Assembly: GCA_020850375.1 (NCBI GenBank)
Contig: JADZET010000476.1
Location: forward strand, 1-5,712
Source of the DNA: Phycisphaeraceae bacterium
GTDB taxonomy: Bacteria > Planctomycetota > Phycisphaerae > Phycisphaerales > Phycisphaeraceae
Length of the DNA: 5,712 nucleotides
Direction: 5' to 3'
Below are positions 870 through 5,411 of the stretch, piece after piece. Positions within the stretch are counted from its first letter, which is position 1, and every line of letters starts with the position of its first letter. Under the pieces are notes generated by a model that was not told where the DNA came from, did no database searches, and worked only from the letters and a program-made list of their open reading frames with translations. A program made the translations under genes and the position numbers.

Positions 870-991
870 AGAGACCTTCCTTTCCAGATCGCCCAGAGCC
901 TGCCTGCACGGGCGGAAAAGAAGGTGAAGAGGCTATGTCGAGAAGGTGGCCTAAAGCCTTCCCGCAGGCCGGGCGGCGTCCTTCAACGCCG
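870..991 (-). promoter_or_regulatory. Structured 5' leader (copy 1) with sequestered Shine-Dalgarno
   Basis: This is the probable untranslated leader of the 223-residue gene, about 120 nt, described in transcript order. Hairpin P1 is CGGCGT (991-986) / ACGCCG (979-974) with loop TGAAGG. P2 is CCCG (973-970) / CGGG (964-961). P3 is GGCT (958-955) / GGCC (951-948), with GAA/TTC (961-959, 944-942) extending below an ACC bulge. P4 pairs ACCTTCTTTTCC (925-914) with the Shine-Dalgarno region GGAAAGGAAGGT (885-874): 12 contiguous pairs including one G-U. It is capped by GCCC (913-910) / GGGC (894-891) across a 5-base bulge. A second pyrimidine tract, ACCTTCT (947-941), and the purine tract GGGAAGG (963-957) offer competing pairings. 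The same architecture recurs at 2541-2664. I recognise no known riboswitch class. A translational switch, RNA thermometer or protein-binding leader are all possible. Confidence 0.6.
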
Positions 992-2669: not shown

Positions 2670-2697
2670 ATTGTGCCACCATGAGGAACGGTGTCAA
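2670..2697 (-). promoter_or_regulatory. Promoter of the 439-residue gene
   Basis: TTGACA (2697-2692), a 16-base spacer and CACAAT (2675-2670) make a sigma-70-type promoter. It has the same hexamers as the paralog's promoter at 998-1026. The predicted start near 2663 places the first leader hairpin at the very 5' end of the transcript. The promoter lies within the 5' flank of the divergent plus-strand glycosidase operon, 76 bases before its first ATG. Confidence 0.6.
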
Positions 2698-2773
2698 GGG
2701 CTCAGTCGATTGGCATGGGAAGCGGATCAATGGTAAGGATGCATCGGGTATTCTCCAAAGGAGCCGAGCCAGC

Positions 2774-4093
2774 ATGTCCCCAGCCGGTGCCGACACTTCC
2801 CGTAGCAGTCATTTCCCCCGTTATCCGCTCAAAAGCAGCGACAATCACCGTTATCTCGTTGATCAGAACGATCGCCCCGTCCTGGTGCATGGCGACTCGC
2901 CTTGGTCGCTGATCGTCGGCCCCACGCCGGAGGAAGCGGACCTCTACCTCAGGGACCGCGCCGCCAAGGGCTTCAACACGCTGCTGGTCAACCTCATCGA
3001 GCACAAGTTCACGCCCAACGCGCCGCAGAACTTCCGGGGCGACGCGCCCTTCACGACACCGGGCGATTTCACCACGCCCAACGAGAAGTATTTCCAGCAT
3101 GCCGACTGGGTCATCCGCCGGGCCGGCGAGCTGGGGATTCAGATCCTGCTGGACGTCTGCTTCCTGGGCTTCGACGGCGGCGATCAGGGCTGGTACGTGG
3201 ACGTGCTGGCCAATGGGCCGCGGCGCTGCGCCGAGTTCGGCCGCTACGTGGCCGAGCGATACAAGAGCTTCGACAACATCCTGTGGGTCATCGGCGGGGA
3301 CAAGAACCTCGATAAGGAACGCGACGCCATGGTGGCCATGGGCGACGCGATCCGCGCCGTCGACGCCCGTCACCTCTGCACGGGCCACATGGTCCAGGGC
3401 ACCTCGCCGCTGGACCCTACCAGGGCGTTTGGTGATATGCCGTGGATCGACCTGAACAACGTGTACTACAGCGAGGTGGTGCACTCGCGTTGCATACACG
3501 CCTACTACCACCAGCCGGCGATCCCGTTCATCCTGATCGAGTCGACCTACGAGGGCGAGCACAACGCCAGCCGCGTGCAGATCCGCCGGCAGGCGTACTG
3601 GGCGCTGCTTCGGGGCGCGTGCGGCCAGGTCTTCGGCAATCGGCCGATCTGGCTGTTCGATCCCGGCTGGCGGGAGGCGCTTGATTCGCCGGGCTCGGTG
3701 GCCATGACTCACCTCCGCAGACTCTTCGAGAGCCGGCCGTGGTGGGAGCTTGTCCCCGACGATGGCCACAAGGTCGTCACCGATGGCCTCGGTGAGTTCC
3801 GCGGGATGGACTACGTCTCGGCCGCGGTGACCGCCGACGGCTCGTGCCTGATGGCCTACATGCCCTCGGCCCGGACGATCGCGGTTGACACGTCCAGACT
3901 CTCCGGCGACAAAGCCGATGTCTGGTGGTTCAATCCCCGCTGCGGCGAGGTCGAGGCGGGCAAGCCTCTGATCGGCAAAGGCGAGAAGTGGCTGACGCCG
4001 CCGGACTCGCCGGCGGATCATGGGGATTGGGTGGTCGTCGTGGATGACATCGCCAAGGGCCGGCCCGCGCCGGACGGCATGAGACTCGGTTAA
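2774..4093 (+). CDS. Apiosidase-like DUF4038 (GH140-type) glycoside hydrolase
   Basis: The protein has 439 residues. Residues 15-335 form the DUF4038 apiosidase-like TIM barrel: RPVLVHGDSPWSLI (34-47), GFNTLLVNLIEH (66-77), the FTTPGDFTTPNEKYF segment (93-107), ILWVIGGDKN (169-178) and PFILIESTYEGEHN (251-264). By analogy with GH140 family members, Asp176 and Glu256 are the probable catalytic acids. Residues 341-425 (MAYMPS, VDTSRLSG, WWFNPRCGEVEAG, DWVVVVDD) match the small C-terminal beta domain annotated as a putative collagen-binding domain in this family. GH140 enzymes release apiose in rhamnogalacturonan-II breakdown; the substrate here is not determined. No signal peptide is visible, so it is probably cytoplasmic. 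The start at 2774 is preceded by AAAGGAG (2757-2763). The in-frame ATG at 2681 would overlap the divergent promoter and has no family counterpart. This is the first gene of a likely three-gene operon. Confidence 0.88.
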   Translation: MSPAGADTSRSSHFPRYPLKSSDNHRYLVDQNDRPVLVHGDSPWSLIVGPTPEEADLYLRDRAAKGFNTLLVNLIEHKFTPNAPQNFRGDAPFTTPGDFTTPNEKYFQHADWVIRRAGELGIQILLDVCFLGFDGGDQGWYVDVLANGPRRCAEFGRYVAERYKSFDNILWVIGGDKNLDKERDAMVAMGDAIRAVDARHLCTGHMVQGTSPLDPTRAFGDMPWIDLNNVYYSEVVHSRCIHAYYHQPAIPFILIESTYEGEHNASRVQIRRQAYWALLRGACGQVFGNRPIWLFDPGWREALDSPGSVAMTHLRRLFESRPWWELVPDDGHKVVTDGLGEFRGMDYVSAAVTADGSCLMAYMPSARTIAVDTSRLSGDKADVWWFNPRCGEVEAGKPLIGKGEKWLTPPDSPADHGDWVVVVDDIAKGRPAPDGMRLG

Positions 4094-4103
4094 GGGAGAC
4101 GCC

Positions 4104-5411
4104 ATGAGCGATCAAGTATGGGACGTCAACAAGGTCCGCTACCCGCTGAAGATCAGCGCCAGCCGCCGCTACTTCGTCGATCAGGACGACAAGCCAGTCC
4201 TCGTCCAGGGCGACTCCCCCTGGTCGCTGATCGTCGGCCCGTCCCCGGAGGAGGCCGAGCTTTACATGGCCAACCGGAGAGACAGGGGCTTCAACGCGAT
4301 CATCGTCAACCTGATCGAGCACCACTTCACCACCGACGCGCCGAACAACTACCGCGGCGTCGGCCCCTTCACAACGAAGGGCGATTTCAGCACACCCAAC
4401 GAGGAATATTTCAGGCACGCCGACTGGGTCGTCGAGACGGCCGCCCGTTATGGCCTGCAAGTCTTCCTCGCCCCGGTCTTCGTCGGCTACCACGGCGGCG
4501 AGCACGGCTGGGAGAAGGAGATGGTCGCCTGCGGCCCGGAGAAGTGCCTCGCGTACGGCCGCTACGTCGGCCGGCGGTATCGCAAATACGACCACATCTT
4601 CTGGCACATGTCCTGCGACCAGGACCCGACGATCGCCATGCGCGAAGTCCACGCCATGGCCGAGGGCGTCAAGGCCGAAGACCCCCGCCACCTCATGACC
4701 ACCCTGACCGCCCCAGAAAGCTCCGCTCAGGGCATCTTCCCCGGGGCGAGTTGGCTCGACGTCAACGCGACCTATTCCTACAAGCTCGTGCACGACTGCC
4801 TGCGGCGCGATTACCAGTTCGAGCCGACCAAGCCCTTCGTGCTCATCGAGTCGACCTACGAGAACGAGCACAACGCCAGCGCCGTGCAGATGCGCCGCCA
4901 GGCCTACTGGGCGATCCTCTGCGGCGCGTGCGGCCAGTTCATGGGCAACTACCCCATCTGGCAGTTCAGCCAGGGCTGGCAGCAGGCGATGGACCACCGC
5001 GGCGCGTCGGACATGAGCCACCACCGCCGGTTCTTCGAGAGCCGGCCGTGGTGGACGCTCGAGCCGACCAAGCATCGTTCGGTCCTCACCCGCGGCCTGG
5101 GCGAGTGCCACGGCCTGGACTACCTGGCCACCGCGCTGACGGCCGACGGCTCAACCCTGATGGCCTACATGCCGACCCCCCGGAAGCTGATGCTTGACAC
5201 CAGCAAGCTCACCGGCGAGAGCTTCCACGTCTGGTGGTTCAACCCGCGCACCGGCGAGTCGATCACCGGCGGCGTGCTTCCCGCCCGCAGCATGTGCCCC
5301 CTCTGGCCCCCGCCCGATACTGCCAGAGATGACGACTGGGCCCTGATCGTCGACGATGCGGCGAAAGACCTCCCCGCCCCAGGCAAGGTCATCTGGACAT
5401 CACGTGATTGA
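4104..5411 (+). CDS. Second apiosidase-like DUF4038 (GH140-type) paralog
   Basis: The protein has 435 residues and is a tandem paralog of the gene at 2774-4093, colinear from residue 12 onward. Shared blocks include GDSPWSLIVGP (36-46), NLIEH (69-73), FVLIESTYENEHNAS (245-259), RRQAYWAIL (264-272) and FESRPWW (311-317). Glu249 matches Glu256 of the partner. The other catalytic position lies in IFWHMSCDQD (165-174): Asp172 is retained but the usual GGD loop is SCD, suggesting a different substrate or linkage. Residues 335-420 form the C-terminal beta domain (AYMPTPRK, WWFNPRTGES, DWALIVDD). There is no signal peptide. The gene starts 10 bases after the partner's stop. Its ribosome binding site AAGGGAG (4092-4098) overlaps that stop codon, so coupled translation is likely. 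The two enzymes probably act on related parts of one imported glycan, or form a hetero-oligomer. Confidence 0.87.
   Translation: MSDQVWDVNKVRYPLKISASRRYFVDQDDKPVLVQGDSPWSLIVGPSPEEAELYMANRRDRGFNAIIVNLIEHHFTTDAPNNYRGVGPFTTKGDFSTPNEEYFRHADWVVETAARYGLQVFLAPVFVGYHGGEHGWEKEMVACGPEKCLAYGRYVGRRYRKYDHIFWHMSCDQDPTIAMREVHAMAEGVKAEDPRHLMTTLTAPESSAQGIFPGASWLDVNATYSYKLVHDCLRRDYQFEPTKPFVLIESTYENEHNASAVQMRRQAYWAILCGACGQFMGNYPIWQFSQGWQQAMDHRGASDMSHHRRFFESRPWWTLEPTKHRSVLTRGLGECHGLDYLATALTADGSTLMAYMPTPRKLMLDTSKLTGESFHVWWFNPRTGESITGGVLPARSMCPLWPPPDTARDDDWALIVDDAAKDLPAPGKVIWTSRD

Follow-up and report, generated by a model that had tools for sequence, protein, structure and literature searches.

Two tandem genes on the minus strand of the window, the 5,712-nucleotide stretch of Phycisphaeraceae DNA that was analysed here as a whole, are each preceded by a copy of a structured RNA leader, which contains two pseudoknots and pairs its own Shine-Dalgarno (SD) region within a stable hairpin. 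Covarying structure extends from a predicted promoter to the start codon and includes the SD, as would be expected of a structured cis-regulatory 5′ leader in general. Homologues are found in six phyla, almost solely before genes that encode one small N-terminal domain. The leader is, with practical certainty, a real structured RNA, and probably serves as a built-in gene control element that has so far gone unrecognised. That it controls translation in cis is very likely; the fuller proposal of a new class of translation-controlling 5′ leader, with the linked domain as its likeliest effector, is made tentatively, being nearly as apt to be right as wrong.

The Two Leader Copies and Their Genes

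The features of the window are compiled in Table 1; for copy 1, leader position n corresponds to window position 991-n. A conserved block is located upstream of either gene on the minus strand, and the leader blocks of the tandem paralogues A and B are 77% and 92% identical. The N-terminal parts of proteins A and B share only 42% identity, yet the same SD helix is present in both leaders. Copy 1 scored 144.9 bits with the first covariance model, R1, which was made from six sequences (window copies and pattern-scan genomes) including copy 1 itself, and 105.6 bits with the 83-sequence model R3; for copy 2, which is also part of the models, the scores were 137.6 and 115.8 bits, respectively. Copy 2 was also picked up as a repeat in a self-comparison of the window. 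The initial annotation had assigned the leader to positions 870 to 991. It was right about the location and not about the size, the structured leader spanning 990 to 867 and comprising more than the four tracts described there.

For gene A, no Pfam match was obtained to E 0.1, and the single NCBIfam match had 13.8 bits against a cut-off of 156; for gene B, neither Pfam nor NCBIfam gave a match to E 0.1. The plus strand (2681-5411), reading away from the gene B leader, encodes a tandem pair of apiosidase-like glycoside hydrolases, each with a collagen-binding-like domain at its C-terminus (matches PF13204, PF12904), whose genes are 74-76% identical over three long DNA stretches. Since the ATG at 2681 adjoins the predicted promoter of the gene B leader, a later start is the likelier one for the plus-strand hydrolase.

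Promoter-like sequences are a feature of the family. Sigma-70-like sites (8/12 matches or better) occur in 61.5% of the 117 leaders for which 60 upstream bases were available, compared with 17.8% of mononucleotide shuffles. Within these sites, most -35 boxes fall between -39 and -33 and most -10 boxes between -16 and -11. On the basis of these box positions across the family, transcripts are predicted to start close to the first base of P1.

Table 1: Features of the two leaders and their genes (window coordinates, all on the minus strand).
Feature	Position	Strand	Details
Predicted promoter, copy 1	1026-998	minus	TTGACA 1026-1021, 17 nt, CACAAT 1003-998
Leader RNA, copy 1	990-867	minus	P1 to start codon of gene A
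P1 hairpin	990-975	minus	990-986 with 979-975; GAAGG 984-980 in loop
PK1 pseudoknot	984-942	minus	P1 loop 984-980 with CCTTC 946-942
P2 hairpin	973-961	minus	973-971 with 963-961; loop GCCTGC 969-964
PK2 kissing helix	969-898	minus	P2 loop 969-964 with P4 apical loop GCAGGC 903-898
P3 hairpin	958-948	minus	958-955 with 951-948
P4 hairpin, copy 1	925-874	minus	P4a 925-914 with 885-874; P4b 913-909 with 895-891
Shine-Dalgarno region, AAAGGAAGGT	883-874	minus	Unpaired probability, calculated without pseudoknots, <0.01 at nine of ten bases and 0.13 at the last
Gene A, 223 aa	869-198	minus	N-terminal domain at residues about 1-84 (869-618)
Predicted promoter, copy 2	2697-2670	minus	TTGACA 2697-2692, 16 nt, CACAAT 2675-2670
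Leader RNA, copy 2	2663-2538	minus	To start codon of gene B
P4 hairpin, copy 2	2596-2545	minus	P4a 2596-2585 with 2556-2545
Gene B, 439 aa	2540-1221	minus	N-terminal domain at residues about 1-84 (2540-2289)

Comparative Evidence for a Doubly Pseudoknotted Fold

Pairing was assessed on A7, an alignment of 83 homologues in which the 40 base pairs of the structure give 3,194 cells. Standard pairs occupy 92.7% of these cells (77.8% in shuffles), and both partners have changed in 38 of the 40 pairs (24.8 in shuffles) and in 490 cells (127 in shuffles), where it is to be considered that A7 was fitted to P1, P2, P3, and P4 and is biased toward these helices, and that kinship inflates the shuffle test. 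Once the partners are slid by one to three columns, pairing falls to 40.9-51.1%. When 6,789 column pairs of the 83 homologues are ranked by weighted, corrected mutual information, the structure holds all of the 19 strongest; several invariant pairs rank low, as is expected of invariance. The initial annotation had made its case dependent on covariation among homologues, which is thus strong.

The five pairs of P1 take ranks 1, 2, 3, 22, and 39, and all five show both-sided changes. The P1 loop is engaged in PK1, which is paired in 86.2% of cells and has both-sided changes in five of five pairs over the 83 homologues; two of its pairs rank 7 and 10, the remaining three 127 to 538. P2 is paired in 82.8% of cells, with pair 972-962 at rank 13 and a weak outer pair, 973-961, that is unpaired in 27 of 74 cells. 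For P3, the corresponding value is 98.2%, and three pairs are found at ranks 6, 9, and 14. The kissing helix PK2 is paired in 100% of cells, with both-sided changes in six of six pairs and three pairs ranked 15, 21, and 26; the variants distinguished by eye include GCCUGC:GCAGGC, GUCCGC:GCGGAC, GUUUGC:GCAAAC, GUUCGC:GCGAAC, and ACCCGC:GCGGGU, besides others. Neither PK1 nor PK2 was part of any model used for alignment. Few unpaired bases are conserved in the family, among them AA at 960-959, just 5′ of P3 (99% and 100% of rows), and A947 (73% of rows). The linker at leader positions 50-65 is variable and poorly conserved.

Viewed singly, the window copies lend modest support. The longest complementary run, with G-U allowed, is 13 in copy 1 and 14 in copy 2, lengths that are matched in 38 and 14 of 2000 dinucleotide shuffles, respectively; the folding z-scores are -1.36 for copy 1, with 20 of 200 shuffles folding equally well, and -3.13 for copy 2, with none of 200. 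It is the comparative evidence that lifts the helix far above chance.

Burial of the Shine-Dalgarno Region

The 12-bp helix formed by ACCTTCTTTTCC (925-914) and GGAAAGGAAGGT (885-874) on the minus strand, with one G-U pair, lies precisely where the initial annotation had drawn it, and the two copies have it in common. The accompanying claim, that the leader buries its own SD, is borne out over the 83 homologues, in which P4a is paired in 89.4% of cells and both partners have changed in 11 of its 12 pairs; P4b is paired in 96.5% of cells, and ranks 4, 5, 8, 11, 12, and others are held by P4. The energy of P4 was calculated as -25.2 kcal/mol for copy 1 and -22.7 kcal/mol for copy 2, the homologues having a median of -20.6 kcal/mol and a range of -27.1 to -12.2 kcal/mol (37 °C). 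In the calculated ground state, the SD is hidden.

Distribution and Compact Forms

A pattern scan of one-per-species genomes yielded 50 loci, three of which, all from MAGs titled Phycisphaerae or Phycisphaeraceae, were recognised as leaders on inspection. With R1, matches at E 0.01 or better were found in eight of 35 genomes from the family of G001, one being the weak locus L078; the 20-sequence model R2 matched in 32 of 397 genomes of the class and 18 of 392 of the phylum. R3 gave matches in nine of 194 genomes from the phylum of a Verrucomicrobiales genome, in 19 of 199 from the phylum of an Acidobacteria genome (five rows of which were counted uninspected), in one of four mixed genomes (Longispora albida), and in four of 39 further mixed genomes. 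The last four comprise three leaders, from Mycolicibacterium houstonense, a Rhodospirillales MAG, and Paenihalocynthiibacter styelae, and one false hit (L253). The weakest rows may likewise be false (L167) or decayed (L163), and searches of more than 40 genomes may miss leaders owing to strict filters and the few candidates scored per genome. Plasmid records add Gemmatimonadota and more Pseudomonadota, which brings the total to six phyla.

Two loci deviate from the common picture. At L163 (1501-1640), a score of 61.6 bits was reached, yet neither a start codon nor a domain gene follows, and the locus is probably a decayed copy. L078 (1501-1622) has leader-like P1, P2, P3, and PK1 sequence, a different P4 region, and a downstream gene without the domain; it is a possible second regulon member.

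In rhizobial forms, a short P1, PK1 (e.g., UGUAGG:CCUACA), a closed P2 hairpin, and P3 are legible, and P4 with its kissing loop is absent, as judged by eye from five sequences; a candidate helix over the start region of these forms was no better than shuffles. Because rhizobial domain genes possess the P1-PK1-P2-P3 core only, burial of the SD by P4 is not universal. Read by eye from these five sequences, the arrangement looks like a conserved core combined with an exchangeable expression platform. Longispora (L158, L200) has a short form in which the SD can, by eye, still pair in a small hairpin. On plasmid pRL11 of Rhizobium johnstonii 3841 (L261, 1122-1203), a compact core stands before a VOC-family gene, and this member is flanked by an IS91-family transposase and a recombinase gene. 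Named strains with the leader or its core are R. johnstonii 3841, Methylosinus sp. C49, Variovorax paradoxus, and Gemmatirosa kalamazoonensis.

Association with One N-Terminal Domain

The linked domain of about 85 residues was described by a profile, A8, whose 20 rows all come from leader-linked genes. For 117 of the 123 distinct leader hits, A8 detects the domain in the 420 bases that follow (E under 1e-3), a count in which the 20 A8 rows match by construction, being the same genes. The match is in the frame of the match-ending start codon in 114 cases and in another frame in three (L135, L183, L245). In the upstream control (600 bases, either strand), the domain was found at none of the 123 hits. 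The six hits without the domain are L167 and, twice, L253, which are false, the decayed L163, the weak L078, and L086:55-186. At L086, two leaders (55-186 and 1501-1623) stand in succession, the second preceding a standard domain gene. The gene after the first, a strong leader, retains the effector found at L096 (identity in 91 of 362 aligned columns, E 3e-30), and a lipoprotein-like start replaces the domain.

Genome by genome, the same association is seen. Of the 397 genomes of the class sample, 32 have the leader, 32 the domain, and 30 both (Fisher p about 2e-40). The leader-only genomes are G043, whose gene does carry the domain on direct check, and G015 (L078); the domain-only genomes are G105, where a leader of 52.9 bits appears once filters are off, and G129. 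By a hand count with fragments merged by hand, 50 of the 52 domain genes of this sample have a leader, those without being G129 (L240) and G211:C4 (L249). In a set of 20 genomes, picked by leader presence and hence not independent, the leader stands at 41 of 42 domain genes of the 12 leader genomes (the exception, L209, reaches 10.3 bits), and no domain gene was found in the eight leaderless ones. When 198 Actinomycetota genomes were searched by domain, five carried it and all five had the leader, with scores from 54.5 down to 24.1 bits; G754, one of the five, was already known as leader-bearing.

Of 14 plasmid records matching one domain query, seven carry a canonical leader (E of 5e-9 or better), namely those of two Burkholderia species, Methylosinus, Variovorax, Gemmatirosa, Azospirillum, and Nonomuraea. 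Six more, rhizobial or related, have the short core form, represented by four weak matches (13.6-17.5 bits) that end at the start codon and by two, closely similar to each other, that were recognised by eye alone. Upstream of the domain gene in the Vibrio campbellii record (L262), no leader was recognised. Altogether, four domain genes examined are without a recognised leader (L240, G211:C4, L209, and L262 of Vibrio); as A8 contains leader-linked genes only, it may fail to detect more distant branches in which the domain occurs without a leader, and the link is perhaps overstated.

No Pfam model covers the domain in the 22 leader-following proteins scanned, and no NCBIfam model exceeds its cut-off in eight proteins, the matches being weak only, such as NF004629 with 13.8 bits against 156. 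An AlphaFold model predicts five helices (mean pLDDT 87.2), and fold searches with it returned no convincing solved relative. Over 114 proteins, the domain is mildly basic, with a mean net charge of +3.7 and a range of -3 to +12. It starts with a conserved LPPRP-like stretch (residues 5-9 of A8), where slow elongation could affect re-initiation given its closeness to the start codon. The C-terminal parts comprise ankyrin repeats, glyoxalase, T2SSE ATPase, TIGR03067, and regions without assignment. Relatives of the L148 domain have mostly ankyrin entries and a few HEAT or acetyltransferase entries among the matches listed (120 of 182); a few within the same 120 have entries that we take to be LRR or GGDEF.

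Proposed Mechanism and Alternative Readings

The transcript would begin at about the first base of P1, and P1, P2, and P3 would fold into a compact core held by PK1. P4 would pair the SD with its anti-SD strand, and its apical loop would kiss the loop of P2; this PK2 contact would tie the SD-burying hairpin to the core, so that translation would depend on events at the core. The domain, supplied by the same gene or by a paralogue, may bind the core and steady the closed state, which would amount to autogenous feedback. Leader and domain would thereby constitute a portable module by which any fused effector is brought under the same control.

The domain is regarded as the likeliest effector since the presence of the leader follows this single domain, whatever the function of the fused part, and occurrence before one protein family is the typical look of autogenous leaders. 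Its direct action is nevertheless advanced as a possibility that falls somewhat short of probable; a small molecule follows as a less likely effector, and ribosome standby without a dedicated ligand comes well behind. Against the domain it may be held that a protein clamp looks redundant given the modelled stability of P4 alone, that simple negative feedback wants an open default, with which a closed ground state fits poorly, that the domain is only mildly basic, and that L086:55-186 is a strong leader without the domain downstream. Slightly more speculative still is the portable module in its full form, in which the doubly pseudoknotted leader and the small helical N-terminal domain recognise each other across unrelated effectors and at least six phyla.

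Alternatively, the leader could be a riboswitch, with the P1-PK1-P2-P3 core as the binding site of a small molecule or ion. Binding would alter the kissing contact and, with it, the SD helix, and the N-terminal domain would share the pathway or sense the same ligand. The double-pseudoknot core with its conserved unpaired AA and A947, the predicted start site near P1, the aptamer-plus-platform layout, the rhizobial forms that keep the core without P4, and the strong leader lacking a downstream domain would all suit a riboswitch. Metabolite riboswitches, however, usually stand before several unrelated gene families, and conserved unpaired bases are few here. Furthermore, after the 123 leaders, the false hits L167 and L253 aside, no recognised transporter or biosynthesis gene occurs, and the gene context offered no ligand candidate. 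A riboswitch is considered unlikely, though it is the closest competitor of the domain.

Rather improbable is a gating by ribosome standby, in which the 5′ pseudoknot and the linker would hold the 30S subunit by the closed SD hairpin until P4 breathes, the leader setting a low or growth-dependent translation rate with no dedicated ligand. Such gating would agree with the high stability of P4 and with the order of 5′ pseudoknot, poorly conserved linker, and hairpin burying the ribosome-binding site, which resembles the order reported for tisB (PMC7708055). It leaves unexplained, however, why the leader is linked to one protein domain and why the kissing of P4 and P2 is conserved.

The initial annotation had pointed to the tracts ACCTTCT (947-941) and GGGAAGG (963-957), which were correctly located on the minus strand, and had let them compete for the partners of the SD helix. 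A tract exchange of this kind, or else heat, would free the SD if the leader were a switch of competing tracts or an RNA thermometer. Complementary tracts are indeed present: both window copies and most of the 20 closest relatives could form the alternative pairings. Leader 44-50 gives with the SD a mean run of 4.48, compared with 4.25 in 100 partner shuffles, of which the highest reaches 4.40, a slight excess that may indicate residual competition of 947-942 with the SD. Column covariation, however, does not support the competition: no alternative column pair (947-942:SD, P1 loop:anti-SD, 961-957:anti-SD) is above rank 288 of 6,789, and in the 83 homologues CCTTC 946-942 covaries instead with P1 loop 984-980 (PK1), as do 957-955 with 949-951 (P3). 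Neither the P1 loop with the anti-SD (4.52; 4.68 in 100 partner shuffles) nor leader 30-36 (961-955) with the anti-SD (5.47; 5.51 shuffled) shows an excess, and PK1 (4.77 versus 3.74), PK2 (6.45 versus 5.21), and P4a (9.20 versus 7.59) are clearly above partner shuffles. Melting would, moreover, need no double-pseudoknot core, and the calculated median energy of P4 makes easy melting of the SD helix unlikely. A switch by heat or by tract exchange appears quite improbable.

Finally, a leader without RNA function, arisen as a by-product of recent cassette duplication or transfer, may be dismissed: the tandem paralogues with their similar leader blocks and the R. johnstonii 3841 member between transposase and recombinase genes would fit recent copying, which cannot account for the compensatory changes that every helix shows among distant genomes from several phyla.

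Relation to Known RNA Elements

In agreement with the initial annotation, which had recognised no known class, the leader matches no Rfam family: with the covariance models of Rfam 15, no family was found at gathering score in the window and 30 further loci. Only two matches under E 1 were obtained, RF01687 in L077 (23.1 bits, cut-off 37), outside the leader, and RF02757 in L267 (18.4 bits, cut-off 138), overlapping it; in the window, there are two matches with E 2 and 9.6, neither within a leader. Among the titles and abstracts listed by literature searches, none was recognised as describing the leader, and a search of PMC11109978 and PMC8632094 for selected terms gave no hit.

Autogenous ribosomal-protein leaders, such as that of rpsO, combine a pseudoknotted 5′ leader at the ribosome-binding site with one protein family. 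The present leader is alike in being pseudoknotted and placed before one protein family. It differs in that the linked protein is non-ribosomal, a small N-terminal domain that occurs in fusion with many effectors; the sequence comparison with ribosomal-protein leaders consists of the Rfam scans alone. Translational riboswitches are known for SD-sequestering helices and loop-loop contacts. With these the leader shares a compact 5′ core at the predicted start, kissing loops, and an SD-hiding platform, whereas it stands almost solely before one protein domain, matches no Rfam riboswitch, and has an SD-burying hairpin that is itself a kissing partner. The tisB standby mRNA of E. coli has a 5′ pseudoknot followed by a ribosome-binding site that is likewise sequestered (PMC7708055), and the leader resembles it in layout, which is not to say in homology. 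The mRNA of tisB encodes a toxin and must be processed to become active; in the leader, P4 kisses the core.

The Rhodopirellula-1 motif, which occurs in Planctomycetes and Proteobacteria, is listed as probably cis-regulatory in a table that gives no Rfam accession for it (PMC2864571). It could be the same as the leader family, the comparison being with that table line alone (PMC2864571). With this reservation as to Rhodopirellula-1, the leader is assigned to the structured, SD-gating kind of elements, from which it is set apart by a double-pseudoknot fold of its own and by a regulon that is unusual in centring on one domain.

Significance

Summarizing, an RNA family that spans at least six phyla has been found in which every helix covaries, which matches nothing in Rfam 15, and which is tied to a domain for which no Pfam or NCBIfam model was found. 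The link between leader and domain predicts that translation of the domain is controlled via the leader, either by the domain itself or by a shared ligand. If this is true, a common control would be explained for ankyrin, glyoxalase, and other effectors that are otherwise little alike. Structural studies would also gain a small, naturally occurring translational switch in this leader, and the named strains make it accessible. Should the portable module hold true, each gene would carry its own receptor RNA together with its own regulator.
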